From positions 19,953,501 through 20,017,500 of the forward strand of contig OX485805.1 of assembly GCA_950295325.1 (NCBI GenBank): a stretch of DNA of 64,000 bases, in the 5' to 3' direction. Below, one piece after another: positions 15,471 to 50,484 of this stretch; position 1 is the stretch's first letter; each line of letters starts with the position of its first letter. The position numbers were made by a program, and so were the translations under genes. The notes under the pieces were generated by a model. That model was given only the letters and a program-made list of their open reading frames with translations. It made no database searches and was not told the origin of the DNA. The stretch comes from Polytrichum commune. Its lineage: Eukaryota > Streptophyta > Polytrichopsida > Polytrichales > Polytrichaceae.

Positions 15471-15528
15471 TTACTACAACCCTATATATAAGTGCATTGA
15501 TACAATAAGTGGCCTTCACACACAAGTT

Positions 15529-16480
15529 GTAAGCAAGTTAGGTAATGTGGAGACTGAAGCTGCACCCATTGCACCAGTGCAATGAACGGAGAGAGCCAAC
15601 CGCTAGTGACGGATGCACCGGTTGAGTTTGAGGAATAAACTGGTTGAAGAAGTCATCAAGACTTCAGGAAAATCACAGATCGTTTAAAGGAATCTATGGA
15701 ATATATCTCAAATCAATAAAGAACAGTCACAACATGTAACCAAATGGACTTGGAAACACTGGTTAGGTTGTAAGCAAGTTAGGTTATGTGGGGACTGAAG
15801 CTGCACCGATTGCACCAGTGGTAACGAACGGGGAGGAGATCGAGCCAACCGTTAGTGATGGATGCACCGGTTGAGTTTGGGGAATGAACTGGTTGAAGAA
15901 GTCATCAAGACGTCAGGAGAATCACAGATCGATTAAATGAATCTATGGAATATATCTCAAATTAATAAAGATTAATCGCCGCATGTAACCGGATGGACTT
16001 GGAAACACTAGTTAGGTCATAAGCAAGTTCTGCACCGATTGCACCAGTGGCAATGAACAGGGAGAGATTGAGCCAACCGCTAGTGACGGACGCTCCAGTT
16101 GAGTTTGGGGAATTAACTGGTTGAAGTAGTCATCAAGACTTCAGGAGAATCACAGATCGATTAAAGGTATCTATGGAATATATATCAAATTAATAAAGAA
16201 TAATCGCAGCATATAACCAGATGGACTTGGAAACACTACAGTAGTTGGGTCGTAAGCAAGTTCTGCACCGATTGCACCAGTGGCAACGAACGGCGAGAGA
16301 TTGAGCCAACCGCTAGTGACGGATGCACCGGTTGAGTTTGGGGAATTAACTGGTTGAAGTAGTCATCAAGACTTCAGGAGAATCACAGAGCGTGTAAAGG
16401 AATCTATGGAGTATATCTCAAATTAATAAGGATTAATTTGATCGCAGCATGTAACTTAACGGGATGGGCTTGGGAACACT
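15529..16480. repeat. satellite-like tandem array, four units of about 240 bp
   Basis: Unit starts (TAAGCAAGTT) lie near 15530, 15771, 16020 and 16253. Each unit carries TGCACCRATTGCACCAGTG, GATGCACCGGTTGAGTTTG, GTCATCAAGACTTCAGG and a segment like CATGTAACCRGATGGACTTG. Units 3 and 4 share a loss of about 23 bases near their start, so they descend from one another rather than from unit 1. Diverged single copies in reverse orientation occur at 20825-21060, 21085-21420 and 57575-58140. Confidence 0.85.
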
Positions 16481-25068: not shown

Positions 25069-25474
25069 TTACTCACACACTACAAAACTAGTAAGATAAA
25101 GTAGCCGCACGACCTCGTTATACGTGTAGGTTGGAGCATGAATGAAATTGTTGCTCTCATAATCCACCTTGCCTTTTAAATCTAAACACATAACAAAGAT
25201 GTTTGTGGTATATCCATTCCCCTTTCTTTCCCAAAACATGAGATGACATTTCCATGAAGTCAAGGCATGTGCAATGCGGTATGTCGTCAACTGTGACATG
25301 GTATACGATGTCCCCCTTGGAGACAATAATGATAAACACTCCAAATCCATGATATGGAATGGCAGTGACTTCAACGACATAGTGATTGTTCATAAGTCCG
25401 GTGGTCTTCTATTTGTGTTTGTGATTTGCTATCAATGTTGATAGGTTGCAGCGGACGAACTTCTCAAACCTAGA
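25069..25474 (-). pseudogene. SWIM zinc-finger ORF remnant
   Basis: The minus strand reads RFEKFVRCNLSTLIANHKHK, one stop, then KTTGLMNNHYVVEVTAIPYH and further to HVTVDDIPHCTCLDFMEMSS and WIYHKHLCYVF. The CxC ... xKH pattern is that of a SWIM zinc finger (CxCx(n)CxH), with the third Cys replaced by His. A frameshift near 25190 moves the reading to KVDYESNNFIHAPTYTYNEV and a stop. SWIM fingers occur in MULE and FAR1-type transposases and in DNA-binding proteins of unknown role. In this setting a transposon origin is likely but not shown. Confidence 0.65.
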
Positions 25475-25749
25475 AGTTGGGTGGCATCTGGGTTTGGTGT
25501 TAAACAAAAATGCAAGCGAGGGATTGGGAGTGTGGCATTTGTAGAAAGCCTACGATGAGGAGAAAGAGCCTCCCTTTATTGCGATTGGAATTGGAGTATT
25601 TGAGTGCCAACACCTCCACCCTTGAGAGATTGGTACCTATCTTCACCACCCATGTGCTGGGTAATATAAGCCAATCCAACACATGTTTCTTCTTGTTGCC
25701 ACTCACACGACACTTGATGTCATCATGGATAAACTAAAACTTGTATTCC

Positions 25750-27540
25750 ACATTGTTGGTGGAGCCCCAGGGGTGCACCTTTTGTTAAAAACCAAGAATT
25801 ACGTGTGTTTGCAACACACTCTAAAAGCCCCTTATATACATGTTTCCATATGTAAAATGAAGCAATACACGTAAAATTTCAATGATAATAGTACACGTTA
25901 TAATATGTCGACATCATTTTTTTACATTCATATATAGTTATTAATATAAGTATACAAAGATAGCTTTGAATAATAATGAACCCCTATCATATGTATAATG
26001 TAAAACCCTAGGATTCATTAATAAAATCATTGAAGGATTTTTTTCATCCCCCATATGTAATTTATAAGCATTTAGGTCTATAATAAATGTCATAGAAGCT
26101 AATGCAATCATTGTTTCTAAATTTATAGTCAAAATGATTTGTAAGATCGTAAGTCCAATTATTGTTGGTTCCTTTTTGATACTCCCAATAAACCAAATCT
26201 TGATTGGAGCTAAATGTATTGGTCTACCACTTTCTTCTTCTTCATCTTCTTTTACAATTCTATCTTTAGGTGTGCTAAAAAAACACACTTTGTGATCACA
26301 ATCAAAATTTAATATAGTATCACGTGCGATTTGTGGTGGTAAGGAGTTTAGGCTTCACATATAATATGCTAGCCTTAATCTAAGCCAATAAATCTTAAGA
26401 TTAAGTTGGATTGCCATTCAATTGTCTAGCAAATGAACTTTTGGAAATTCTAGACTCCCCTACCTCTACATAAGCCACATTGCACTTTACATTAGATCGG
26501 GAAGGCATTTCAATATTTTTATGTTCATCAATTAGAACATCCAAGGCATGTCCAAGCTCCCCTTGCAACTCCAAATCTTCATGTAAATAATTTTCAACCT
26601 ACGATTGTATCAATTCTATCTCTATGACAACATCCGTGCACGTGTTTGAATTGTCTTCTCCAATACTACAATTTTCCTTGTTACCGCTTTGTGCACTAGA
26701 ATCATCAATCATTGTGTGATCATAATCACACTCCTCATCCTCCTCCATACCTCCAAATAAATGAGCCTCAATAAGTGACCTTACCATACAAGTACAAATG
26801 TTGTATATTTTATAAAGATCTCCATACATGTGCATAACTACGAGTTATAATTTATGTAACATATGTATATGTAGTACAAAAAAGTTTAAATTAATATCCA
26901 TTTTGTGCACTCACATATATTCATACATGTCATGAAGCATGTTATGTGAATTTGAGGGCCCACCCTGCCCATTTTAGGATCCCCTCATGAGCATATGACA
27001 ACACATAGCATGCATAAAACTAAACTAACATAATTCTTGAAATCTTGAAAAATAGTTGCAAAGTACCGAGGAACTATTTTTTGAGATTTCAAAAATTATT
27101 TTTCATCCTTCATTTTATATTTATTTATTATTGGATATTTTCACTTTCAGTAGGTCATACATGATCCTTGCCATTCATGGTTGGTCTTCTTGTGTGTGTT
27201 GTGACCCTTTAAGGGTGCGCACATGGCCAAGTTAAGATCTTTTAAAAGATAGCACAAGGGTGGGACCCCCCCCCCAAACCCAAAACATTCAATAGTGTGG
27301 CCTTGGTGTGGAGGTGTGGATTAAAGGCCAACCCCTATCCATATTAGGATCCCCTCATGAGCATATGACTCCTTCACAATACTAATATTTTGATTTACTG
27401 GAAATCATTTCTTGTTGTTTGTATTTTAGATTTTTCCTTTGTGGTGGTCGTACTAGGAGTATGGTGTCATGCGTCCACTTCCAATGGCCTTATTGAAGGT
27501 GGATGACACTTTGACTCATATAGGAACTTTGAGGAATACA
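25750..27540. other. AT-rich non-coding stretch with acidic minus-strand ORF fragments
   Basis: Minus-strand frames at 25941-26288 and 26599-26835 contain acidic runs (KEDEEEESG and MEEDEECDYDHT). They may be pieces of one decayed ORF but match no family I know. A near-identical 30-base segment (TTAGGATCCCCTCATGAGCA onward) occurs at 26975 and again at 27345, with a 10-base C run between them at 27266-27275. Confidence 0.35.
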
Positions 27541-27671
27541 AATTTCAATTCATTGAGTAGCGAGGTCCATATGAAGCCAATTTTTAAATCAAAAATTTAT
27601 ATCCCTATTTGTCAATTGGTTTCATTGTTTTTTTTATCATATTGATTTTGCACGTCGACGTGTAACTTTTA

Positions 27672-29236
27672 GATAATGAATTTGTGAATGGTTATAGGGA
27701 GGGTCATAGGATGTTGTACGTTTCACCTGACAAAAATGGGAAATTTATGGATATCATTGATTTTGACACTTGATATAAGCACTAGCCATTATGCAATGAA
27801 TTATTTGAAAAAATATTAAAAATCATAACAACAATTTGAAGTCTACTAAGAAGATGTTCTATGTTTGAGAGGGAAAGTACGGAGTCATTGCTTGGCAACA
27901 ACATATTGATAGGTATATAGTGAATGCAAAGAGTGGCATTAAGCAATTGATTGCATAGTGTTGGAATTTGTTGGTTTGGTGGTCATTCTTCTCCATACCA
28001 TGCATGATGTCAATAGTTAATTTTCACCTTTTTGTATTTTTATATTTTATGTTTGTCTATGTCTAGATTCTAAATGTTATACATGTTTGTTTTGTATGTA
28101 GTGTCACTCCATCCGGGCTAGTTTGTTTAGTGTTATTGGAGAAGACTTCCATGTCCACAATGATACACAATAGTACAGATGTGAACCCGCTTTGTTGAAA
28201 ACATTCAAATTTGTGAAAAGATTTAGTATCTTTAATGGCTAGTAATTTCAATTAAAAAATATATAACACCTTTGTTGCTACATGGTGTATGATTGAGATG
28301 AATTGCTCATTACATGACTTTATTGCTATGTGGGGAGCGGACGGAAGAGAAGGTTTCTTTGGAGTTATGCAACTTTGGAGGTTTTGATCGTATAATTGTT
28401 GAATTGCTAGAAGGCTTGCTTGTGCTTGGTGTTTCTTCTCCACCCATTGCAGTCCCTTTTGAATGACCATAACAACAAGGACATTGAGGCTTTGTTTGAA
28501 TTTGCATCTACACGTTTCACTAATGATGGCCTTTTGTTTTTGTATGCCCATGAGAAGAAACGTGTTAGGGACGATGTAAAGGCCTTCTCAACCTCTTACA
28601 ACTTTTGGTTGCGGAAAGATTGGTGGGCTTTAAGCAAGTTGTCATTGTAGTCTCCACTCAATACATCTTTGACAATATTAAACTCTATGTTATGATCCTT
28701 CTATCAGTTCTTCCTTTTCGTAATTGTCAACTTGGATTATTAATCTGCTATACAACCTCGAATGCTAGGTAATATCTTTCAAACTCATTGATTTCACATT
28801 TTGTTTCATTCCCAAGTCCAAGTTTGTTTTCCAAAAGAAGGGAACAATGTCTAAGGTTGATGTTCAAGCTTTGGACATGTACTTCAATATGATGTCGGCA
28901 AGCACACAATTGATGAATGGGAAGCCCCGTGGAGAGGTGGAGGGGAGAAGGAAGTTGAAACAATGCAAATCCTTATTAAGGCTTTGACAACTTTAGGCTA
29001 TGTTGTTCTAGATGCTTATGCTTCTACATGTTGGTAATTTTAATTTCTTAAGTTCATCATGCAATATAATTTCATTGTGGTGTTGTTTGTGGCTTGTGCA
29101 AATTTGTTGACTTCTAGCTATTTCAATGGCAGGTGCATCTATTCATGCTTGCAGATATACAGGCCAACATTTAGTCCTGTATGAGGAGGACTCTACAATG
29201 TTCGATGCCATCCTATCCCCATTGCAAGATGCATAA
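27672..29236 (+). pseudogene. beta-class DNA N4/N6 methyltransferase-like ORF, broken, with intron(s)
   Basis: Pieces in plus-strand order: GHRMLYVSPDKNGKFMDIID (27.7 kb); a block near 27860-27950 with EGKYGVIAWQQHIDRY, which faintly recalls a ParB/sulfiredoxin-type xGxxRxxAW motif; ALFEFASTRFTNDGLLFLYA and KKRVRDDVKAF (28.49-28.6 kb) preceded by a degraded proline motif where (D/N/S)PP(Y/W) is expected; FVFQKKGTMSKVDVQALDMY (28.8 kb); ETMQILIKALTTLGYVVLDA (28.95 kb), an SAM-binding motif I of the VVLDxxAxTG type; and after a GT-AG intron (about 29030-29131) IHACRYTGQHLVLYEEDSTM. The order catalytic motif IV before motif I is that of beta-class methyltransferases. Stops and a frameshift near 28945 make it a pseudogene. 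It could come from a mobile element or a host gene. Confidence 0.5.
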
Positions 29237-30452
29237 CCAACTTTGCTTTTGGTGGGTTTATTTCCTAGAATGCCTTCATCGAATCTAACGAAGAGCTTAT
29301 CAAAAAGGTTGCAAGAAAAAATTGTTTGAGTATCTCAGTTAATAGTTTGTCCTTGTATTGTATCGATTTCACCTCTGGAGCTTTGAAATGTGTGGTTGGA
29401 CATTGAGTTTTGTGACTTTATTTTGCCCTAAATTTTTTTTTTTAAAATCTCATCACAGTCCAAAGGTTTTGCATATACATGTGTAGAGGGTTGCTTGGAT
29501 GATGATGGAGTCAGCGTCGCCAATTCTTCACTGTAGATCAAGATGAATTGCTCGCACCCCTGGTGTAGATGACAAGGTAATGAGTGTAATGATCTTGATT
29601 GCTACGCTAAATTGGTTTAGCAACATGAAGTTAGTTCACAATGCCATCCATTATACATGTTTGAGTGGATTTGATATGATTGGATTTGACTAAATTGGAT
29701 TGTTGGATCAATGTACATTTATTTGTGTGACCAATTTATTCTTGTACTACCATCTATGCCCAAATTTGTTTTTTGCTTTCTTCCTTCGATGCCTACAACC
29801 ATTCATGTTTTAAACCCTTCATACTATCTTGAAAAAATGATAGAGTATGCTCAATACTTGATAAATTCTTGCATGTGTTTAAGAAAGTGGAAGTTGATTC
29901 CATGAACAACATTTGATTAATTTTTCATCCCCTCATGCCAAGCGTGTAATTGTTGAGTTTGACAGTCCATTTCGGTATTCATCAACCCCGCTCAATTTAT
30001 TATGGGCCCCACTCAATTTATTGTGTATGAAATATGTTATGTTTATGCCTAAATACTCTGGTTATGATATAGAAGTGGACTTAGTAGCAAAAACATTTCC
30101 TCCCTTGCTACTCATGTCTCACCGCTCACATGATAGCACTCCCCGAGGACTGCATTGAGTAATGCTCTTAGTATGTTTGGGTACCACGAGAGTTTTCTAT
30201 TATGGTCATCTCGTTGTATTTCTATATACTCTATAGCTAATAATATCACATGTGGCATCCTCATTAGAGGGTGTGAAGGAGTGGTTAGTATAGAAGCTTT
30301 GTAGTGGTGGATTTTTATGAGGTTTGGGAGCATAAGCATTTGTAAGTAGTGGGAAGTATTGAGTTTTTTCCACAAAACTTCACAATTTTACTTATATGTT
30401 TGGTGGAGTGCTTTGGAGTAATATTGGGTTGCATGTGTGTGTGGGTGTTTGA

Positions 30453-33414: not shown

Positions 33415-33769
33415 GCCCCTGGCTAGATTATATCTTCATTCAGCTGGGCCCCGCCTTGCCACACCTCTTTCATTGCATGGTCTTCTTGCTCGCACTTTTG
33501 TGGGAACTCTTCCCTGTTGGGAACCAATGTGACAATACCCGGTCACTTAAGCCATCAAACTCCTCTGGTATGTGAATGAACTCCATCAATTAACTTGGGA
33601 ATAATGAAAGTGATGTCAACTTGAATATTTGTAATTTTGATAAGGTATCGTCACATTGGTTCCCAATGGGGAAGAGTTCCCACACAAGTGTGAGCAGGTA
33701 GACCATGCAGTGAAAAAGGCGTGAGAGGGGCGGGGCCCAACCATATGAAGATGTGATCTAGCCTGGGGC
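33415..33769. mobile_element. long-armed MITE (Mutator-like), copy 1, 355 bp
   Basis: Two inverted arms of about 125 bases enclose a loop of about 100. The arms start GCCCCWGGCTAGAT and include TTGGGCCCC-like, GGGAACTCTTCCC and GGGAACCAATGTGAC segments. The flanks are GTTGTTTAA (33406-33414) and GTTGTTTCA (33770-33778), a 9-bp duplication with one mismatch. Long arms and 9-bp duplications are typical of Mutator-like elements. A second copy lies at 37960-38319. Confidence 0.8.
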
Positions 33770-33789
33770 GTTGTTTCACACCTCTTGAA

Positions 33790-35130
33790 TCTCTCACAAA
33801 CTATTATAGGTAATAGTTAGTATTAAGGTGGACCTAGACATTTTGAAAATCCAAAGTTGTCCATGGTGGAAATTCAATATGTCATGATTAAATATGCGTC
33901 ATTGTTATTGTGGATTTAATTTGTAATTTTTCAATGATTTGAATTGGACACTTAAGTTTATGTAAGAAAATCACACATGAAATTAGTTTTCATTGTGAAT
34001 TTCATTTGATCATAAGGGGTGGCCCCAACAAGGTTCTATACTCGACGTTGAACAACACATAAAAGAGAGGTTTGCCAACAACATCATCTTCATTCAATCC
34101 CGATTTCCCAAGGAAGTCTAGTTTCGTTTGGATCTCGATCAAGAACATATCTTGATTCATTTCATATTTACTTTTTCAAGTGAAGTTGATGAAGAGTGAG
34201 CATGAAGGCTGTCAAAAACCTCCTTTGCAAGCCTCCCGAGTCCTCCTACAACCCGGCCCACCTAGCTAGCTTCACGTATAGTCACCAAGGAAAACCGGCC
34301 CATTGAATCCGAGGGTTGGAAAGCGAACAATTCTCCCAATGCTTCTAAGCAATTTAACTAAACATTGTGAAGAAGCAAGAGCGGATTTTATATCGATTTT
34401 TCCAAATTACCCACATGTATGTCATGCTCTTAATTAGTTGCTTCCCACGTTGGTTTTTAGAGCACGACCCAACCGATTCGTACAAGGACGTTAAGTACCG
34501 TGACTCCCACGCACACCCAAACAATGGAGATGTGTCTTGAAGAAGGACCTCTTTTTAATTGACATAAATGGCCGGTAGTTATAAGGCCCACCACATGAAG
34601 TCACGGATTTTGACCACATGTGTTGAAAGGCCCGTAACCGCTTCTAACTAGAAATTAAAAACAACTTCCACATCGGCAACTTGATGTTGTTACCCACCAA
34701 TCGGGAAGAAAGAAAGAAAGAAAGAAAATGCAACTCTTGCACGACTTTATAATCAAGGGCCACCAAGGTATGTGTGTGTTATTCGGCTCTTTTTTCATGT
34801 TCTCCAACTTCTACCGATTAGATCTACATAATAAAAATTTGTGTCACATTATTAGCAAATCTATAATGAAACATCTGCAAGAATCAGATTGGAAATCGGA
34901 CCTTCATTAATTTAGTTCTGTGATTATTGAAAGTGCATGTGTTGTTGATTCCGTAGCTGGATACATAGGTCCTCCCAATCATGTTCACTAATGAGTGCAT
35001 AGTATTCAATAATATTCGAAGACGTAGTCCAATTTCTTTTAGAACATGTGTTTTTTATGGTGTTTGCTCTTTGATCCTCACTGAAGCACACACCAATTGA
35101 ATGTAGGGGTCCGATTAAGAAGAGGAACCA
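33790..35130. other. non-coding stretch
   Basis: No gene recognised. A (GAAA)n microsatellite of five units lies at 34706-34728. Confidence 0.45.
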
Positions 35131-35131
35131 A

Positions 35132-35639
35132 AGGCCTCGTACACAAGAGAGCTTGAGGGCCCGTGGGCCCGTGTCATACAAATGATGTGATTGGTTGAGA
35201 AGGCGGGGACATTCCAAGTTCACTTTACACTGGACCTAGAAGGCATGAGGGACCAAAGATGTTTGGATGAATGAAACAATCTAAATGGCTTCTTACATGA
35301 CACCAAGTGGATAATGTTTCATGGTCTACTAGATGTTGCGTTAAGATCCCATCAAAAAAAGGTGGGTCTAACAAAAAAACTAAGGACTTTAGAAAACAAT
35401 TAGATTGTTGTTAGCTCTTAGAAATATTATAATGTCATGTTGGGGTCCCGGATTACGTATTGGTCTCGATTGTCCATAAAATATGTTATTGTCCCTCAAC
35501 TTGGTCCACTCTCACTTCACACCAAACTTAAGGACCCATCAATTACAAATTGAGGATTTTTTTTAATTATCTCCCAATGGTACGGCCTTTGGATGATTCT
35601 CAAGGACCTTTAGGTCGTGGTCCATGTGTAAAGCGGCTC
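35132..35639. mobile_element. Harbinger MITE, 508 bp, deletion derivative of the 8459-11647 family
   Basis: Left end AGGCCTCGTACACAAGAGAG and inverted right end GAGCCGCTTTACACATGGAC. The flanks are CAA (35129-35131) and TAA (35640-35642). The left ~330 bases follow 8459-8800 (GGCGGGGACATTCCAAGTTC against GGCGGAGATCATCCAAATTC) and the right ~150 follow 11470-11647 (TGGTCC..CTCAACTTGG, CGGCCTTTGGATGA). The element thus keeps the two ends of the autonomous element and lacks its middle. Confidence 0.75.
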
Positions 35640-35930
35640 TAAGTTATGAGTCCAATGAAGAAAATCTTAAAGTGCACAAAATCTTAAATGATCACGGAAT
35701 TCTTGTGATCAATTCTAGGTAATCAACTTACTCCAAGAAATCATTGGCAATGAGAGGAGATGGATGTTGATGGAACCATGGGGAGCCATTAATCATGTAG
35801 TACCCTCTTCGATCCTCAACCTCGTACACAGCAGACATAATTAATTAGATGTAATTGAGTCAAAATAGATGAAAATGTGATAAAACTCTTGTTGGAAGAT
35901 GATCTGCTTCTATGTTATATGGAGTTTTGT

Positions 35931-36088
35931 TTGGTCCAAGATGACCCTAAACTACTAGATGATAGTGGAGAAGTACCCACACTGAACAGAGTGGTTGGCG
36001 GTTCGATTCCCGGCCATCAAATCGTCCTTCTACTTGACGGAAAAACCAACCACGTGGTCAAAGCGCCTCCTATGTTCCAAATATATAC
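35931..36088 (+). mobile_element. tRNA-derived SINE, copy 2 (158 bp) with 12-bp target duplication
   Basis: Begins TTGGTCCAAGATGACC like copy 1, carries GATGATAGTGGAGAAG at the A-box position, the B box GGTTCGATTCC at 36000-36010, and TCTACTTGACGGAAAAAC. ATGGAGTTTTGT flanks it at 35919-35930 and 36089-36100. The 3' part is shorter than in copy 1 and the tail is an AT stretch. Confidence 0.85.
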
Positions 36089-36166
36089 ATGGAGTTTTGT
36101 CAAGATTACTTTAGGTAGAATTGATTCGTCTTCTCAATGGGAAGGTTGGGGGCTGCTAGCTTTACA

Positions 36167-36392
36167 CTGCACTGATTATCCCGATTAGTGAGTGTCACCA
36201 TGTGGAGCTTCGCAATGCAAGAACGTCTTACTCATGAGCTCAATTTTTACTAACGGAAGTTCAATATGTTGTTAAGATATTACAGGAACATAAATAACTT
36301 TGCTTGGTAAAATATTTCATTCTCATATAATAGTTATAGCACACTGTGTAACTCCGAATAGTAACACACACTAATGGGGATAATCACTGTAG
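36167..36392. mobile_element. palindromic MITE, copy 1, about 226 bp
   Basis: The inverted ends share CTGATTATCCC/GTGATTATCCC, then ATTAGTGWGTGT, and CGGAGTTAC/TGGAGCTTC, about 45 bases in all. A copy with the same architecture lies at 59089-59320. The target duplication is unclear. Confidence 0.7.
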
Positions 36393-36399
36393 AGAGTTT

Positions 36400-37950
36400 G
36401 AGAGTTTGGAGTTGAGAGCTCAAAAGAGGGAATCTGCTTATCGGCATGGAGCTTCTTACTCAAGTTTGTTCAGATGGATCGATCAATAGATGGATGGGTG
36501 GATCCAAAGGAGCAAAGCATGGACAAAGTGGATCTTCACCTCATGTTAAGGTAAGTGTGCCTAAAGTGGACACTACTAGGATTCCAACATATGTAGAGGT
36601 TTGACAATCCAAGAAAACTTACATGAACACATTAGCAAATCCAAATGAGGAACATGAGAGTTGGTCTTGTTATTTTGCGAATGAAAGTGAATATCTTATG
36701 AATTCTTGAAGTGGGATCATAGATTTTCTTAAACGATGTTCATTTGGATATGTACATTTTAGACTTGAATATGTACTTATATGCTAGAAACAATTTAAGA
36801 TCATGAACCATGTTAGGATTACATACCTTGTCGAGAGTCTTTGGGGATGGGACATATCCTATGTGTCAATAATCAAACAAACAAAACAATTAGGAGGATG
36901 GTGGGGAGTCTTTCTATTTCTAAAACATAAAATACCTAGGAAATTGTGTTGAGTATTTGGCACCTCAAAATTGTCTTATCTTAGGCCAAGGTTAAGGTTC
37001 AAAACCTTGTAAAATTGGGAGCTTTCAAGGGTGGAAACTATGCGATGTGTCTATAACGCAAACAAGCAAAATAATCAAGTGTGCAGTGGATGGCTTTTTA
37101 CATGGGAGAGCTCGAGAGCATTAATTTCAGAACTCAAACAAAGGAGCGTATTGTTAAAGAAGTTTTTATTTTACCCCTCTTTGGTAAACTTTTGTTGTTC
37201 TTTCTCTACCGTAAATCCTTTACCACCAGAAATCACCTGCTACCAGTTTCACAGTACTAAAATGTCCTACCTCGCTAATATTGCGAGAGGCTTGCTTTGC
37301 TAATACTCCTCCAACTACCAGTAATTATGTCCACACAACTGCTAACTAAGACATTAAATAGTATCCTATACCACTCCACATGTCACTACTGTAGTTGGAA
37401 GTTAACCCTAGGACGGGATAGTAAAGTATACTATGGGTGTATGGTTCACTGTTATGTTATATGAGTATCTTGTTCCATATCAAAATGAAGATCGACCTTT
37501 ATGTCTTTAATCAATTATATAGGTTCTCCTAATTACGTTAAATATATAGGATCTAGACCGGGTTAACAAATTGTAAACTCGTATTCCAATCTCTTGTCAA
37601 AAAATGTCATTTGATGTGTATTCTTAGTTTGGGGTGTTCACTCTCTATATGTTTTGGCACCCACGTGCATCCGAAAGGTATTTCATTTGGGGGGGGGGGG
37701 GTTGTGAGTAATACCCTTAAAATAGAAACGTCCATATAATATTCAAAATGTTCCATTGCTACCAAAGGATATTCTCTCATATGTTTTTGCGAGATCCTTT
37801 GTTATTCTAAGAGTCTTAATTCTTTCACTTACAGTCTATAAACAATACTCTATCTTTAAACTCACCTATATTTGTAAAAATAATGATAGTTGACCCCCCC
37901 TGGGTTATGAGATCCACATCTAGCGCACACACCATTAGAATATAGGGGTC
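36400..37950. other. non-coding stretch with a 13-base poly(G) run
   Basis: No gene recognised. The G run is at 37689-37701. Confidence 0.45.
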
Positions 37951-37959
37951 CATCGAAGG

Positions 37960-38319
37960 GCCCCAGGCTAGATCACATCTTCATTCAGTTGGGCCCCACC
38001 CCTCCCATGTCTCCTTCACTGCCCAGTCTTCCAACCCACACATGTGTGGGAACTCTTCCCCGTCGGGAACCAACCTGACAATACCCGGTCAAAATTACAA
38101 ATATTTAGGTTGACATCACTTTCATTTTTTTCCCAAAGTCAACTAATAGAGTTCCTTCACATGCCAAAGGAGCTTAATGGCTTAAGTGACCATGTATTAT
38201 CACATTGGTTCCTGATGGGGAAGAGCTCCCACGCAAGTGCGAGCAGGAAGACCAAGCAGTGAAGGAGGCATGGGAGGGATGGGGCCCAACCGAATGAAAG
38301 ATGTGATCTAGCCTGGGGC
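37960..38319. mobile_element. long-armed MITE (Mutator-like), copy 2, 360 bp
   Basis: Same architecture as 33415-33769: GCCCCAGGCTAGATCACATC at the left end is exactly inverted at the right end. The arms include GGGAACTCTTCCCCGTCGGG and GGGAACCAAC/GGAACCAATGTGA. The flanks CATCGAAGG and CATTGAGGT match at six of nine positions, as expected of an aged 9-bp duplication. Its arms agree better with each other than those of copy 1. Confidence 0.8.
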
Positions 38320-42397: not shown

Positions 42398-42754
42398 TAA
42401 TAACCTTTTAAAAGGATCTAGCTTTTGTTTCACTTAGGATAAGGTCGTGTGTTTTGGTAGGTGTAGGAGCCAACGTAGGGTTTTCATTGATAAGGTTGAA
42501 TCAGCTACTTGAAGGTAGAGCTCAATATGTGAGGGGTCAGAAGTTGAACCACGACAATGGTCCTTATCAACTCGACCCACTTCACCATACCCAAGATGTA
42601 TGGTGTAAAACCATTATTGTGGTAGTTTTTGCAAGATTGATAGAGTAACCTTAAAACTAAATACTTTTGTGAACAATGTGTGTATATGCATGTGTGTATA
42701 TCATTGTATGATTTCTAAGAGTGTCCAATCTCATCGTCCGTGTTAGCGTTAACA
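42398..42754 (+). repeat. 5' LTR
   Basis: It aligns with 50117-50484: TTTGTTTCACTTAGGATA, TGTTTTGGTAKRTGTAGGAG, CACCATACCCAWGATGTA, TGTAAAACCATT and GTGTCCAATCTCATSGT occur in the same order. The copy begins TAATAACC where the 3' copy has TGATAACC, and ends AACA. The exact left border may be a few bases off. Confidence 0.8.
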
Positions 42755-42775
42755 TTTTGGCAACCATGCTACGGA
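42755..42775 (+). other. candidate primer-binding site
   Basis: TTTTGGCAACCATGCTACGG starts right behind the 5' LTR. It resembles a mutated TTGGCGCCGTTGCC-type site as used by many plant Ty3/gypsy elements. The match is imperfect. Confidence 0.4.
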
Positions 42776-43179
42776 TGAAATTTAAGGACTACACATCGAT
42801 AGAAGCAATGACATGCAAATAAACGACTCATGGAGACTTCAAGCGAAAAACCGGACAACGTGGATCAACAACCTGTCACCTTGGGCTCACCAAAGATGAA
42901 AACTCATGAAGTTTCTACGAAAGAACCATACAAGGCAATGAATGACATCACTGAGCAATTCCACAAACTGAATCATCTGTTTAAATGATTTGAGAAAAAA
43001 CTAGGCAACAAACAACGACCTTAATCAGGGACAAAGAAGTAACAACAACCATTGCATCACAAAACACGGTACAAACTACACCAACCATTGTACCTCATAA
43101 TTAACCTCCACAACCTTGGGCTCCATTGCCCCCATATTGGGCTTGGCCATTTTTTGATACATCGACACTACCCTTCCAA

Positions 43180-43441
43180 CGCCGACTTGAGTTTACCGTT
43201 TCACCGAACTAAACACTTGTACCCATTTTTTGATAACGGGGTAGATTCGGATGCTCATGTCGAGGCATTCAACATCGTAGCCACGTTGAATGGTGTGGAC
43301 ACACCCATGGATTGGAAAAACATCTTCGGAACGACACTAAGAGGAGCATGTGTCGATTGGTATATCAACTTTCTATGCGACAAACTAGTCGCAATATTGG
43401 ATGTTATGGAGAGACAATTTTACAAGCGATCGCAACGTTAA
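43180..43441 (+). pseudogene. retrotransposon gag remnant
   Basis: The frame reads PFFDNGVDSDAHVEAFNIVA, then TLNGVDTPMDWKNIFGTTLR and GACVDWYINF, the typical capsid-type core of plant retrotransposon gag (D-AH-EAF ... W--IF--TL-G-A--W). It ends with a stop after MERQFYKRSQR. Confidence 0.7.
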
Positions 43442-43643
43442 ATCAAGCGATGAAATAACTACAAAAAATGTCTAAAATCAAAAAATTAACATTGAAATTG
43501 TAGACGACTATTACTCTCGTTCCCTCAAATTAAGAGACTTGTTGTTTAGCATACCCGATGAGTTTATACTAAAAGTATAGTTCCGAGCATGTCTTAAATC
43601 ATGGGTTCAGCAAGGCATGCTTCCATTACCATACACACGTTAT

Positions 43644-43771
43644 GAGACTCGTGCGTAGCATGCACATTAATTGAAGAATGGGATATGAGACTCATTCCTA
43701 GCATGCGCATTAATTGAAGAATGGGATATAAGGCTCATTCGTAGCATGCGTATTGATTGAAGAATGGGGTA
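43644..43771 (+). repeat. 43-bp tandem repeat, three units, within the gag region
   Basis: Units starting GAGACTC or AGGCTC at 43644, 43687 and about 43730 share TAGCATGC.CATTAATTGAAG and AATGGGATAT. They probably arose after the element died, or in a non-critical part of gag. Confidence 0.8.
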
Positions 43772-45289
43772 CTTCCGATGGATGGACAGCAAGTAAAACA
43801 TCCTTCACTTTGCCTCTCACCTGCTCTATCTAAGGCAAAATGCACCCAAACAACCTCGTTGGTTCAATCCTTCCGATCCAAAAAATAGACTTACATAATA
43901 ATAGTGATAAATATACGTCGGCAACAAATATAAAGGGTGAGGAGATAAAATGCCACGCAATCCAAACCAATAGGCGACTTACCAACACACTTGCTCCTTA
44001 CCCACCATACGCCTACGATGTTTTGTATGAGTAGGACCACGTTGCAAGATTGAATGTCCCATCATCCATGAACAATGGGAAAAATATTGTACGGGCCATA
44101 ATGTAACTCAAAGAGGAGGAGTGACCATACTTGAGACAAATGACAACCCACAAATACGTTAAACATCAAGTGCTCCATAGGCATGACTTGATCATAAACA
44201 CCGACCACAAAGTTTATGAAACCACGTGAACCCATTGAATTGTTCACCAAAACTTATTGGTGAGATTAGACATGGTGCAAGAAGAATGTACACAACAATT
44301 ACAACAATAAGCACCCACATGGACATTCGAGACTCGCAAAGCTCTTGGAGTGGATAGAAGCCACCCAAACCATCCCTTGATATCCTTAACACCTTCACCA
44401 ACACAAGTTGATATGCAAGACTTATTACAACACCTTTGCAAATTCCGTTAAAATAGATGTTGCAGCTATGCCCTAAATTACTCTCACACATCCAATGTCA
44501 GACGAATTCATCCACAAATGACATCAAAGTCAATCACCATGCAACATTAGTGCGAATGCCATTGGCAAAACTCTTCAAATTATGTAATGGTAGATGGAGG
44601 TTTTGGCATCAATGTTGTGTCATAACACTTCTAGCACTAAATAAATATTCTCAAACCGGAGAAAAATGATTCATCATTTGGATGGCCAAATCATTTAAAA
44701 GTTAACCCACTAGGCATCCTACGCAATGTTAAAACAAGTATCCAATGTATCATCATCCTAGTCACATTTGCAATACTCAAATTACCTCCCAAGATGCAAT
44801 ACCAAATCATTTTGGGACGATTGTAGTTAAGAGATATGAATGCTACACAAGATTGGAACAACAAACACACTCACAATTGGACACAATAAACGTACTATCA
44901 TCCCCCTTTGGAGACATATATCCACAAAGACGACACAAACTATTCGAGGATAAATTGGCGGTGATTACTCGCAAGATTATAGCGAGGAAAAGAACAAGTA
45001 TTGTTAGCACTTAACCTGAGCTTTCTCCGATTGCCAAACTTGATCTCTCAAAATCATTGAAATAACCCACAACCATACACATCCTCCACAATTATGACCC
45101 ATAATACTCAACCAAATACATGTCAATGAAGGTCTCGCACACCAAAGGTTACAACACACTCAAATTACAAGGTGGTTTGTCAACCCAAAAGAAAAGATCT
45201 AGTTTTTGAATGTTGCTTTAGATGAACATCCCAAAAATATCAAGATAGACGCAAAAGCATCAGAGAAATTAAAGAGCAAGCAATTTGAT

Positions 45290-46330
45290 TATTTCATAAA
45301 TACAAGGATGTCTATGCTTGGGGGCATGAGGATTTAAGAGGCACATCATCGTCATTAGCGGAGCACCAAATTGACCCCAAACTTGGGACAATACCAATCA
45401 AACAAAGATGCTATTGCATGAACCCAAACTATGCACTCTTGGTCAAGAAAGAATTAGACACTAAAAACTTGTGGCTGCAAGATTCATATTACACATTGAT
45501 GCCTCTCCGTGGTTATCATCGATGGTCGTCATACCAAAGAAATCATGAGCATTACATAAATGCATTAATTTTAGAAAATTAAACATGGCTATTAAAAAAG
45601 ATCACTATTCTCTCTTGTACATGGATGATATTATAGACAAGGTTGTAGGCCTGTAATATATTCATTCATTGATTTTTTTTAGTTATTACTAGTAAATTCC
45701 AAAAAATAGAGTAAATAACCATGTTTATCATTGATTGGGGCCCGTTTCAATTCAAACACATGCCCTTGGGTGTGATAAATACGCCCATGACAGTTTCAAT
45801 TTGTGCCCAAAAGAAGATGAACATGCCCATGACATTGCAACGGTTGATAGAAACAATATTTGATATGTTCCTACAAAAACAAAAACAATATATAATTATG
45901 ATTATAATATGTTTGGATGATGGGACCATTTATGAAACAACCAAAAAAACACATCCAACACTTAGAGCAATCTTGCAAATGTGCCAAAAACACAAAGTAA
46001 GTTTGGATTTGGAGAAATGTATGTTTCTATTCTTCTTGGGTTTCTTGGGTGTGATGAACGCTTCCATGACATTGCAACAGTTGATGGAAACAATATTTGA
46101 TATGTTCCTAGAATAATAATAATAATAATAATAATGTATTTGGACAATGGGACCATTTATGGAACAACCAAAGAACAAACACTTAGAGCAATCTTGCAAA
46201 TGTATTAGACACAAAGTAAGTTTGAATTTGGAGAAATGTATGTTTTAATTCTTCTTGGGGCTTATCTTGGGATATATTGTTTGCAAAATTGGTAAGCTTC
46301 TAACCCAAATACTATTTGCAATATCCTCCA
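45290..46330 (+). pseudogene. reverse transcriptase remnant with internal tandem duplication
   Basis: The frames read YKDVYAWGHEDLRGT, EHQIDPKLGT, NPNYALLVKKELD, SSMVVIPKK and FRKLNMAIKKDHYS, then FIIDWGPFQFKHMPLGVINT, and the catalytic region as ICLDDGTIY, followed by KVSLDLEKCMF. All are landmarks of Ty3/gypsy RT, the DD pair being catalytic. Stops separate them. About 225 bases around the catalytic motif are duplicated in tandem (45816 on and 46053 on), and in the second copy the motif reads LDNGTIY. Confidence 0.82.
45816..46260 (+). repeat. tandem duplication, period 237 bp, across the RT catalytic motif
   Basis: GATGAACATGCCCATGACAT at 45816 and GATGAACGCTTCCATGACAT at 46053 begin two parallel stretches that run through ACAATATTTGATATGTTCCT, GGGACCATTTAT and GAGCAATCTTGCAAATGT to GGAGAAATGTATGTTT. 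In copy 2 the part after TGTTCCTA has become an (AAT)n microsatellite (46113-46134). Confidence 0.88.
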
Positions 46331-46559
46331 AATACAACCACTAAAAGACCAAAAATATTTACAACAACTCATGGGCCTTGCCCAATTCAATAGAATGTAC
46401 ACTTAAAACATCGCCCAAATCCTTTGGCCAATTTCATGGCTTAACCGCCCTTACTATAACTTTGTAGAACATTGGGATGAGTTAGCCTCTCAAGCATGTT
46501 GTAAACCAAACAACTATACACCAATCATCTGGTACTCATCTCCCCAAGATGGGACTTAC

Positions 46560-46960
46560 CTTTCTGGGTGCACATGGAGGCCTCCAACAAAACCCTCAAA
46601 GTCATGCTCACAAAAAATCCAACGTGCAAAGCGGACCAACCAATCACGTATTTGAGTTGGCTTCTCACCAACATAGAAAAAGACTACTCCACAATAGAAT
46701 GTAAAGCCTTAGCGATGATCTACATGGTCAAAAAATTTCCGTCATTATTTGTTGGGCAAGTAATCCCAATTTGTGGTGGGCCATCATGTGTAGCTTATAT
46801 TTTTGATCAACTAACTTGTGGTAAAAGGCCGACCTGTTGTTGGGTCATGTTGCACATGGATTTCAAACTTGAAATCGTTTACAATTCGGGCAAGTTGTTG
46901 TTGATTATCTATCACAAAATGGCTTACCTTCAAAGACTTCACACAATGACTTAGACAAAT
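46560..46960 (+). pseudogene. RNase H remnant
   Basis: LPFWVHMEASNKTLKVMLTK, ADQPITYLSWLLTNIEKDYS and TIECKALAMIYMVKKF follow the RNase H domain of Ty3/gypsy (the usual D-AS---- G--L, Y-S--L---E-NY---E-E-LA). FKLEIVYNSGK near 46860 is the usual tail before the integrase. The first catalytic Asp is replaced by Glu (MEAS). Confidence 0.78.
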
Positions 46961-47214
46961 TTCTAGATGCATATGTCTCATCCATTGCCAACCTAGACCA
47001 ACGAACCAAAGACATTTGACAGGTCCTCAAAATGGACGTGGTGCCTCCTAAGAACAACCTCATCAATATTGCACTTCCATTCACAATCATCAACAATGTG
47101 ATATTTAAACGAGGCATTGACTAAAAGTTATGGCGATAGCTTTCACCTATCGATGTTGAACTTGTCAAAGCATCAGAGCCCAACATTTCCCTTCGAATTT
47201 GTACCCATACCCAG

Positions 47215-47380
47215 ACCATGACCATCAGCAGCGACCTATGCCCACCCATGCCCACCCATAGCATGACATGTGTCCACTCATACCCACCCATGCCCACCCA
47301 TAGCATGAATGTGTCCACCCATGCCCACCCATGCCCACCCATAGCATGAATGTGTCCACCCATGCCCACCCATGCTATTC
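47215..47380 (+). repeat. CCCACCCATG minisatellite
   Basis: Repeats of CCCACCCATGCCCACC and CATAGCATGAATGTGTCCAC in higher-order units of about 50 bases. A second expansion of CCCATGCCCACC with AATATCGCACCCA units lies at 47605-47720. They sit between RNase H and integrase. The Gly/His/Trp-rich opposite frames are artefacts. Confidence 0.85.
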
Positions 47381-47774
47381 AAATTGCGCCCATGTATTCA
47401 AAAATTGCACCCATATATTCAAAAATTGTGCCAATGTAGTCAACCTTGCCCAGTGGCTTTTGTATTTTGGAGCTTTCAACTTCACTACTTTGAGAAGAGA
47501 AAGTCATAAGGGGTTAGTAGAGTAATCCAACATGTAACACAATCCGGTCCTCCACGCAACCGTCGAAAGCATTTGAATGAGAGCTCATCCAATATGCTTT
47601 GCTATAGCCCATGCCCACCCATGAAAAATAATATCGCACCCACGCCCACCCATGCCCGCCCATGAACATAATATCGCACCCATGCCCACCCAAAACCCAT
47701 GGGCATGGGCATGGGCACCCAATGTTGGGCTCTGCAAAGCATGGTTGCACCCGATACTGCCCTTAGCGCCATTT

Positions 47775-48375
47775 CTAGAATGGAGTGTAGACTATATGAG
47801 CCCAATCGCTATATACAAAATAAATACATTATTGTGGCAACCAATTATTGCATGAAGTGGGCCGAAGCCAAAGCTATCCGAATCAACATGACCAATGTCA
47901 TGATACAATATCTTTGTGATTTTTTTAGTTTTTTTTTTGTCGATTTGGATGTCCATTAGAAATAGTGTTGGACCAAGGAGCTCACTTTGTGAACAATGTT
48001 ATATCCACCTCTCTAGTTAATTACATAATTAAGCATCCCGTTTCCACACATTATTATTCACAAGGCGTTGGCCAAGCCAAATCGACAAACAAGATGTTGG
48101 TAACTATGATCACAAAAGTGGTCAATTTTAGTAAGAACAATTGGGACGATTGTCTCATCTCCGTGTTGTGGGCTTACCAAACAACATACGAACTCACCAC
48201 CAAGTATATACCGTTCGAGTTAGTATTTGGTACACAACTAATGTTGCCATTCGAAATGTTGGTGCCCACATTTACACGTATGTCACCAAAAGATTACAAG
48301 CTAGAAAGCGTCCTCGCCATGTGTATCAATGATCTACACCAACTCAAAGAATGGGAGAACAAGAAAATCAAATAG
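47775..48375 (+). pseudogene. integrase core remnant
   Basis: EWSVDYMSPI (first catalytic Asp), YIIVATNYCMKWAEAKAI, a frameshift near 47958, then DQGAHFVNNV (second Asp), HPVSTHYYSQGVGQAKSTNK (Lys where the third catalytic residue Glu is expected), WDDCLISVLWAYQTTYELTT and PFELVFGTQLMLPFEMLVPT. This is a clear Ty3/gypsy integrase. The changed third catalytic residue and the frameshift make it inactive. Confidence 0.85.
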
Positions 48376-48379
48376 ACCT

Positions 48380-50110
48380 TTAAAGAAAATAAGACATATA
48401 TTCCATGAACAAAAAAACTCCCAAATCGTGTCAAAATAGAGACTTGGTGTAGTGGTGCATGCACGATTAGAAAATCAAACCGTCAAAGTTTCATAGAATT
48501 TGGGAAGGTTTTCATCAAATTACACTAACTCTACCCAACAACACCGCATTATTGGTATGTGAGGACAAGTTTAATGATTGAAGTTTGGTAATCAACTTTC
48601 ATAGACTCTTGGTTTTGAATGATATAATCACCTCAACATTTCCCACCTCCTCAATACATTTGACTCGATTATCATCACTTGCTTCTAGGCCAGTTACCAA
48701 TGACGGCCGCCAACAATTCTCATCCCACCATCTACAACACAACCTAATATCCCTACACCTATGCCCACACCAACCCAACTTAGCCTCACTTTACCAATTA
48801 GCCAAAATTTACTCACCAACCCGCTACCACAACATTATAAACAAAACCCTAAATCCACCCCATCCCACTTACTCGATTCGAGACAAAACACCAACTTCTA
48901 GTCACCTTGTTGCCTCACCTCCCACTTTGCCATTTCTAACTCCCCATTACACACTTACCACCTCGATTTCACACATCTTTCCATAGTCACAACCGTTCAA
49001 ATTAATGCCATATGTAAACCCTCACAACTCCACATTGATGAATTTTGCAGTGCACACCACCACGTTGAAGTAACATCACTTGGTTTTGAATGGTAGGTCT
49101 CGAGGAGCTGGACCACAACATTTCCCAAGAGGTAATCAAACCCTTGTGCTGAGTTTTTCAATTGTTTGCTACGCCCTCTTGGCAAGAAGTCTTTTGAATC
49201 ATGTAGCGACATTATTAATGGTTGTTGACCACAAAATTTTAGAAACAATCCTTAACATGGAGAGCGGCGGGGAGTATCGCTACACCAAAACCCACCCAAA
49301 ACAAAAGTAACCCCACCTCACTGATGTCATCTCCGACTCGTAGAGGACAAACAATCAAGTGCACTTGGAAAACTACGTGTCAAGGCTACAAAAAAACAAA
49401 CAAGAAATGTTTCATTTGCATAACGGGCATACTTGGCATCATTGTAACATTATCATCACTTTGGAACCGATTATCTTAGCAGCCAAAGGATGCAAATAGA
49501 TTGGCCATACATTGTAGACATTGTTGTTTGAAACAACAATAGAAAAATTGCTATCAGATTGTTTTTAATGATGTTTGTCAAGAGAACCCTCTGTGATGCC
49601 ACTTACTAAAGATTCACACATAGTTTGGGTCAACAAATTTTGCCATGCACAACCAATTACATCCCTTTGTCATTGATTGGTGTTAAACAAAGCCACAAAC
49701 AGACTAGAGGCAATGCCAACACATCTTGAACCGCACATGAAATTTTTGCACAACTCAAAAATATGGAGGCAGAGGAAGTCTTGTTCTGGCTATAGCTAGT
49801 AGTCAATACTTAATCTCAATCTTGGACTAAAGTAGTAGCATACATAGGCCAGTTGTTATTTGATTTAAGAGAAAAAGAAAAAAATTATTTTAGAAGTGTA
49901 TCTTAACAAGAAACCCAAATAAGTAGGCTATTCATAAAACTAAGTCGAAGTAAGGTACTTTCACAACAAGATTTGCGTCCAACTTGCATGGAGCACCAAA
50001 AATCGGATGAAAGAACTCAAATATTTCTAACAATACAAACTAAAGGTCGCCAAATAAGAGAAGCTCGAACCCAAATCACAAGCAGCCCTTGCAAGCACCA
50101 CATCTTTCAA
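48380..50110. other. 3' non-coding part of the retrotransposon
   Basis: No recognisable domain after the integrase. It is C-rich on the plus strand at 48640-48990. I see no clear polypurine tract before the 3' LTR. Confidence 0.5.
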
Positions 50111-50116
50111 CGTTAT

Positions 50117-50484
50117 TGATAACCTTTTAAGAGTTTTGGCAGTTTGTTTCACTTAGGATACGTCCGTATGTTTTGGTATATGTAGGAGCTAACACATGGT
50201 TTTTGTTGGTAAGGTCAAATCAACTACTCAAAGGTAGACCTCAAGAGACGAGGGGTCAAAAGATTGAATTGCCGTAGTGGTCCTTAATTATCAATTTGAC
50301 TGACCTCACCATACCCATGATGTACGATGTAAAACCATTGATGTGATAGTTTTTGCAAGAATGACAAAGCTACATTAGAATTGAATACTCTTGTAAACAA
50401 TATGTGTATGTGCATGTGTGTGTATCACTGTCCGACTTTGTAGTGTGTCCAATCTCATGGTTTGTGTTAACTAAAGCATTAACA
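50117..50484 (+). repeat. 3' LTR
   Basis: Starts TGATAACC and ends TTAACA, giving the canonical TG...CA borders. It aligns along its length with 42398-42754 with many differences. Confidence 0.8.

Follow-up and report, generated by a model that had tools for sequence, protein, structure and literature searches.

A probable 3' end of a dead beta-class DNA amino-methyltransferase gene, split by a predicted intron, in land-plant-like DNA

The locus and its surroundings

The locus described here lies in a window of 64 kb (the whole stretch of DNA that was analysed), which resembles land-plant DNA and contains a two-repeat MYB gene (Myb_DNA-binding, 2.4e-34) and a gene for a lipid transfer protein (LTP_2, 9.8e-12). 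Besides these two genes, one predicted spliceosomal intron at the locus itself is a feature of eukaryotic type. The first-pass annotation placed the locus in a 'transposon desert', a loose expression in view of a decayed LTR retroelement at approximately 42.4-50.5 kb of the same window (42424-50480; direct repeats 7.7 kb apart, reverse-transcriptase RNase H domain). Inside this retroelement, short tandem-like repeats (47226-47390) and an internal duplication (45816-46175) are present. A segment of approximately 4.9 kb (33446-38298) is foldback-element-like, both of its ends being palindromic and forming inverted and direct repeats of each other (I1, I2, I4, I5, D7, D11), and four tandem copies of approximately 200 nt each, with 68-92% identity to the reference copy, are found at 15528-16437. 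The most notable repeat near the locus is a 55-nt direct repeat just 5' of it (26945-26999 and 27315-27369, 82% alike), the 26-nt identical core of which has no other match in the window at up to 3 mismatches.

On the minus strand, the region 25069-26354 contains open stretches of 106 codons (25069-25389) and 137 codons (25941-26354), which look protein-like by eye and match no Pfam family. A partner gene was sought in the minus-strand frames of 23.0-27.45 kb; none was recognised and no Pfam family was matched. A scan of 26.3-27.7 kb for bacterial promoters yielded no more than was found in shuffles, and searches of the window with Rfam (gathering score) and for tRNAs yielded no hits. The features of the locus are as follows.

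28945..29029 (+): exon part with the motif X-like EKEVETMQILIKALTTLG and the first half of motif I (YVVLDAYAST); profile match from column 181 of 248
29030..29132 (+): predicted GT-AG intron interrupting motif I (103 nt, phase 1), picked by the profile alignment
29133..29236 (+): exon part with the second half of motif I (ASIHACRYTGQH), the motif II-like LVLYEEDS, the protein end and the stop; profile match to column 242
28861..28944 (+): open frame continuing 5' of the matched part, which by itself matches no family
28769..28905 (+): possible continuation in a different frame (...KSKFVFQKKGTMSKVDVQALDMYFNMMSASTQLMN), read from the translation; no Pfam family, continuity presumed
28462..28647 (+): candidate central part of the methyltransferase domain (NDHNNKDIEALFEFASTRFTNDGLLFLYAHEKK onward), suggestive only (13.0 bits)
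27457..28240 (+): upstream blocks, partly read earlier as ParB-like; no Pfam family, ParB profile not above the rest of the window

The spliced frame is open from 28861 to the stop (90 codons). All peptide blocks quoted in the first-pass annotation were found in the plus-frame translations of 27869-29200, namely EGKYGVIAWQQHIDRY (27869-27916), PPIAVPF (28440-28460), which is a proline motif upstream of motif I, LFEFASTRFTNDGLLFLYA (28492-28548), GYVVLDAYAST (28996-29028) and IHACRYTGQHLVLYEEDSTM (29141-29200).

Profile scan and the predicted intron

The main profile was built from 23 beta-class N6/N4 amino-methyltransferases from viral contigs, named phages and plasmids: 164 loci with a methyltransferase frame were reduced to 17 sequences by clustering at 55% identity, 6 sequences from named phages were added, and locus L167, in which the gene is split in two, was excluded. 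The scan is a dynamic-programming alignment in which frameshifts, stops and GT-AG introns are allowed at a cost, and it involves no joining by hand. The best match of the whole window was at 28945-29233 (+), with a score of 43.5 bits, no frameshifts and one phase-1 intron. The matched segment (profile columns 181-242 of 248) covers the end of the domain that binds AdoMet and comprises only a motif X-like stretch and motifs I and II. Fewer than 70 residues are matched, whereas the spliced piece used in the searches described below has 75. The match stops at column 242 with the stop codon directly next to it, which is consistent with a C-terminal motif I, i.e., with the permuted order. A stop codon just 3' of motif II is expected from that order, decay being the alternative origin of the stop.

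Regarding the controls, when the 64-kb window was shuffled 60 times (order 2), the maximum score was 24.8 bits (mean 18.9, sd 1.7), and the Gumbel estimate for the 43.5-bit match was 5.5e-9 per strand. The flanking DNA, when scanned alone, reached 17.9 bits (downstream) and 16.3 bits (upstream), and the minus strand reached 17.2 bits. Two extra peaks, 29.5 bits at 29603 and 21.9 bits at 29963, represent tails of that one alignment and were gone when the downstream DNA was scanned alone; a second copy was not found within the 64-kb window by the profile scan. Under four penalty settings the locus scored 37.5-46.5 bits and the remaining plus strand 16.3-18.3 bits, and 200 column-permuted profiles applied to 27-30 kb reached at most 21.3 bits. 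The best score with introns disallowed was 33.2 bits. A second, broader profile (17 sequences, 10 of them also in the main profile) yielded 39.1 bits and the same intron (maximum of 40 shuffles, 23.6 bits). A 7-member profile, made from sequences outside the main set, had its top score in the window at the same place and with the same intron, but this score (18.2 bits) was not separated from those of 40 shuffles (mean 18.6, maximum 22.8).

The predicted intron at 29030-29132 outscored all other GT-AG pairs of 28841-29240 (197 in total). It was chosen by the alignment itself, cuts motif I and leaves a spliced frame that is open to a stop, with C as the residue at the exact splice junction. The earlier reading of GYVVLDAYAST and the post-intron IHACRYTGQHLVLYEEDSTM as the methyltransferase motif region is borne out, the two blocks being joined by this intron with profile scores far above chance. 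The raw, unspliced frames of 23.5-33.5 kb have no methyltransferase match in Pfam on either strand, the sole match at E up to 1 being COX5B (0.38); the identification depends on two frames being joined across the predicted intron.

It is very improbable that the likeness arose by chance in non-coding DNA. Far lower scores were obtained in each of the 60 shuffled windows, in the rest of the real window and with each of the 200 column-permuted profiles, and the profile continues in register from one exon to the other over the predicted GT-AG intron; what speaks for chance is that curated thresholds were missed in the library searches and that the 7-member profile fails to set the locus apart from shuffles.

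Family libraries, missing parts and decay

The family libraries agree weakly with a methyltransferase identity. Regarding the exactly spliced piece of 75 residues, the best Pfam family was N6_N4_Mtase (PF01555), with an E value of 0.0088 at profile positions 165-218 of 221, followed by DUF3898 (E 0.2). The expected match to the N6_N4_Mtase profile is thus present as the best Pfam family, but it misses the curated cut-off (16.4 versus 26.7 bits). PF01555 was matched by none of 7 shuffled versions of the spliced piece, two of which gave chance matches (best 0.078). Neither of the single exons matches PF01555, and the second exon matches DUF3898 at 0.019. A longer hand-joined piece (junction C) matched PF01555 with an E value of 0.029 and, in PHROG, three families, all of them methyltransferases (best 3008, 'DNA methyltransferase', 1.9e-4; others 0.01 and 0.029); the match to PHROG 3008 covers residues 138-207 of the piece, inside the spliced open frame. 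NCBIfam yielded one family, the DNA methyltransferase PRK13699 (E 0.006, 16.3 bits versus a cut-off of 244).

The tblastn query was the hand-joined piece with G in place of C at the junction. It hit 340 weak phage records, of which 227 were Mycobacterium records (mostly outside the 20 matches listed); among the 20 matches listed, 17 were annotated as methylases and 3 were without annotation, the best E value being 0.05. Plasmids yielded 6 weak records (4 annotated as methyltransferases, best E value 0.02). No relatives were found in viral contigs scanned with pieces of the remnant. A motif pattern occurred in 16 stretches of genome contigs, none of which had an open frame of at least 60 codons matching a methyltransferase profile at E 1e-3. 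Solved structures gave 4 matches, all with E values of 0.54 or worse, and blocks other than GYVVLDAYAST and IHACRYTGQHLVLYEEDSTM gave no significant family match.

Motif I is common to Rossmann methyltransferases, and with fewer than 70 matched residues the locus might derive from some ordinary eukaryotic methyltransferase gene, now dead, whose likeness to the beta class is confined to motif I, candidates being METTL4/MT-A70, Trm11-like, N6AMT and RsmH-like enzymes. In the 4mC methyltransferases of Marchantia, which are reportedly RsmH-like, motif I lies close to the N-terminus. However, the match at the locus takes in the motif X-like stretch 5' of motif I and finishes at a stop, PF01555 was the sole methyltransferase family in Pfam for the spliced piece at a maximum E value of 10 (HMMER filters remove most matches above 0.1), and the PHROG and NCBIfam matches are DNA or plain methyltransferases of phages or prokaryotes. 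Descent from an ordinary eukaryotic enzyme appears unlikely.

The first-pass annotation described a decayed beta-class N4/N6 methyltransferase with motif IV before motif I. This description is supported for the 3' end (motif X-like, I and II), while the motif IV half does not rise above noise. The pattern of the catalytic motif IV is D/N/S-P-P-Y/F/W. The N-terminal half of the main profile scored 12.45 bits on 28201-28950, and 83 of 200 shuffles were as good. The best upstream match of the broader profile, NDHNNKDIEALFEFASTRFTNDGLLFLYAHEKK at 28462-28560, is at the position expected after motif IV and scored 13.0 bits, a score also reached by 42 of 200 shuffles. With a longer stretch 78 of 200 shuffles did as well, and with a shorter one 23 of 200.

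A ParB-like pattern, seen by eye in the upstream blocks (27457-28240), was dropped because the ParB profile does not rise above other parts of the window: it scored 15.3 bits in 26.5-29.3 kb versus 17.6 bits elsewhere, with 18 phage and viral-contig sequences in the profile and the rest of the window as the benchmark, a setting in which a divergent domain could escape. ParB was not matched in these blocks by Pfam, and their PHROG matches were only to families of unknown function (E 0.016 or worse).

The frames of the upstream blocks shift repeatedly and contain stops, and motif I has lost some of its glycines. This copy is a pseudogene, the broken, intron-split tail end of a gene. The CpG ratio is 0.37 in 27450-29240 and 0.20 in 28839-29233, compared with 0.55 in the whole window, 0.43 and 0.42 in the flanks, and 0.66 in the MYB and 0.76 in the LTP reading frame. 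The low ratio at the remnant fits a long exposure to cytosine methylation and is not peculiar to the locus.

The gene may also have been the cargo of a mobile element (a transposon, a retroelement or a giant-virus-like insertion), perhaps as a ParB-methyltransferase fusion; this is compatible with the main reading, and we regard it as possible though doubtful. Phage enzymes in which ParB_N is fused to N6_N4_Mtase occur (locus L003), eukaryotic retrotransposons with C5 DNA methyltransferases are reported (PMC5890265), and the window is rich in repeats. However, no LTRs or long direct or inverted repeats flank 27-29 kb (among the direct-repeat families listed, 20 of 31), and the repeats that bracket it are just pairs of 20-35 nt (D2, D7, I2, I8 and others), mostly AT-rich and imperfect, and are taken as chance. 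Pfam shows no family of transposases, integrases or viral proteins in the six frames of 23.5-33.5 kb, and the lack of a second profile copy in the window and the noise-level ParB score also count against cargo. Decay could conceal element ends around the remnant. The proposed carriage by a mobile element, as opposed to residence as a host gene, is unsupported and not disproved, with neither a transposase nor convincing transposon ends found nearby.

Interpretation and closest known systems

As judged from the comparisons above, the segment 28945-29233 (+) probably belongs to a dead gene, of which it is the 3' end and whose product would have been a beta-class (permuted) DNA N4-cytosine/N6-adenine amino-methyltransferase. 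The reading that fits best, and also the simplest, is that of a dead relic of a captured enzyme gene of this class that once resided in a plant nucleus. The intact ancestor would have bound AdoMet with the 28945-29233 segment and would have transferred methyl to exocyclic amino groups of DNA; its source may have been a prokaryote, a phage or similar, and the intron would have been gained in the eukaryotic nucleus. Beta-class N6/N4 amino-methyltransferases are best known from bacteria and phages. Gain by transfer is suggested by these usual hosts of the family, which are also stated in PMC8885841. There are hints, then, that the plant lineage once gained a DNA-methylating enzyme of bacterial or phage type. 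The wider proposal of a multi-copy, intron-bearing beta-class family with a divergent N-terminal DNA-binding domain, carried by an undescribed element and writing 4mC or 6mA in plant nuclear DNA, is unlikely.

Enzymes of this class seem rare in eukaryotes, in line with a statement on the bdelloid enzyme in PMC8885841. The presence of a predicted intron in motif I of the remnant suggests that the gene was kept in the plant lineage long enough for introns. It raises the testable question of whether a working copy is present in living relatives, and whether their DNA contains 4mC or 6mA.

A literature search (titles and the starts of abstracts, with subscription literature mostly outside its reach) found no report of a plant nuclear gene of the PF01555 family. 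Regarding phages, the ParB-N6_N4_Mtase fusion of Streptococcus phage Javan128 (QBX23397.1) shares with the remnant the C-terminal order and spacing of motifs X, I and II in an alignment, whereas the phage protein has a clear ParB_N (5.8e-10) and a whole N6_N4_Mtase domain, and ParB and motif IV are undetectable in the remnant. PHROG 3008, its best PHROG match (1.9e-4), is a phage protein family that is matched at profile positions 144-213 of 244, i.e., in the C-terminal part only.

The retrotransposons with DNA methyltransferases (PMC5890265) are a further case in which eukaryotic genomes gained such an enzyme, but theirs are C5 cytosine methyltransferases on identified retrotransposons. For the 4mC methyltransferases of Marchantia (Walker et al., via PMC12344493 and PMC8885841), PMC12344493 describes a bacterial source and a land plant as recipient, a description that parallels the proposed history of the remnant. 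The closest documented case found is N4CMT of the bdelloid rotifer Adineta vaga (PMC8885841), a permuted PF01555 enzyme with conserved introns for which a bacterial origin was argued. N4CMT is common to bdelloids, is fused to a chromodomain, was shown to make 4mC and is stated in that source to have no eukaryotic homologues; a chromodomain was sought with Pfam in 23.5-33.5 kb around the remnant, with no match. Both N4CMT and the remnant represent a permuted beta-class amino-methyltransferase of PF01555 in a eukaryotic genome, with one or more introns, whereas the remnant is dead, partial and located in a plant.
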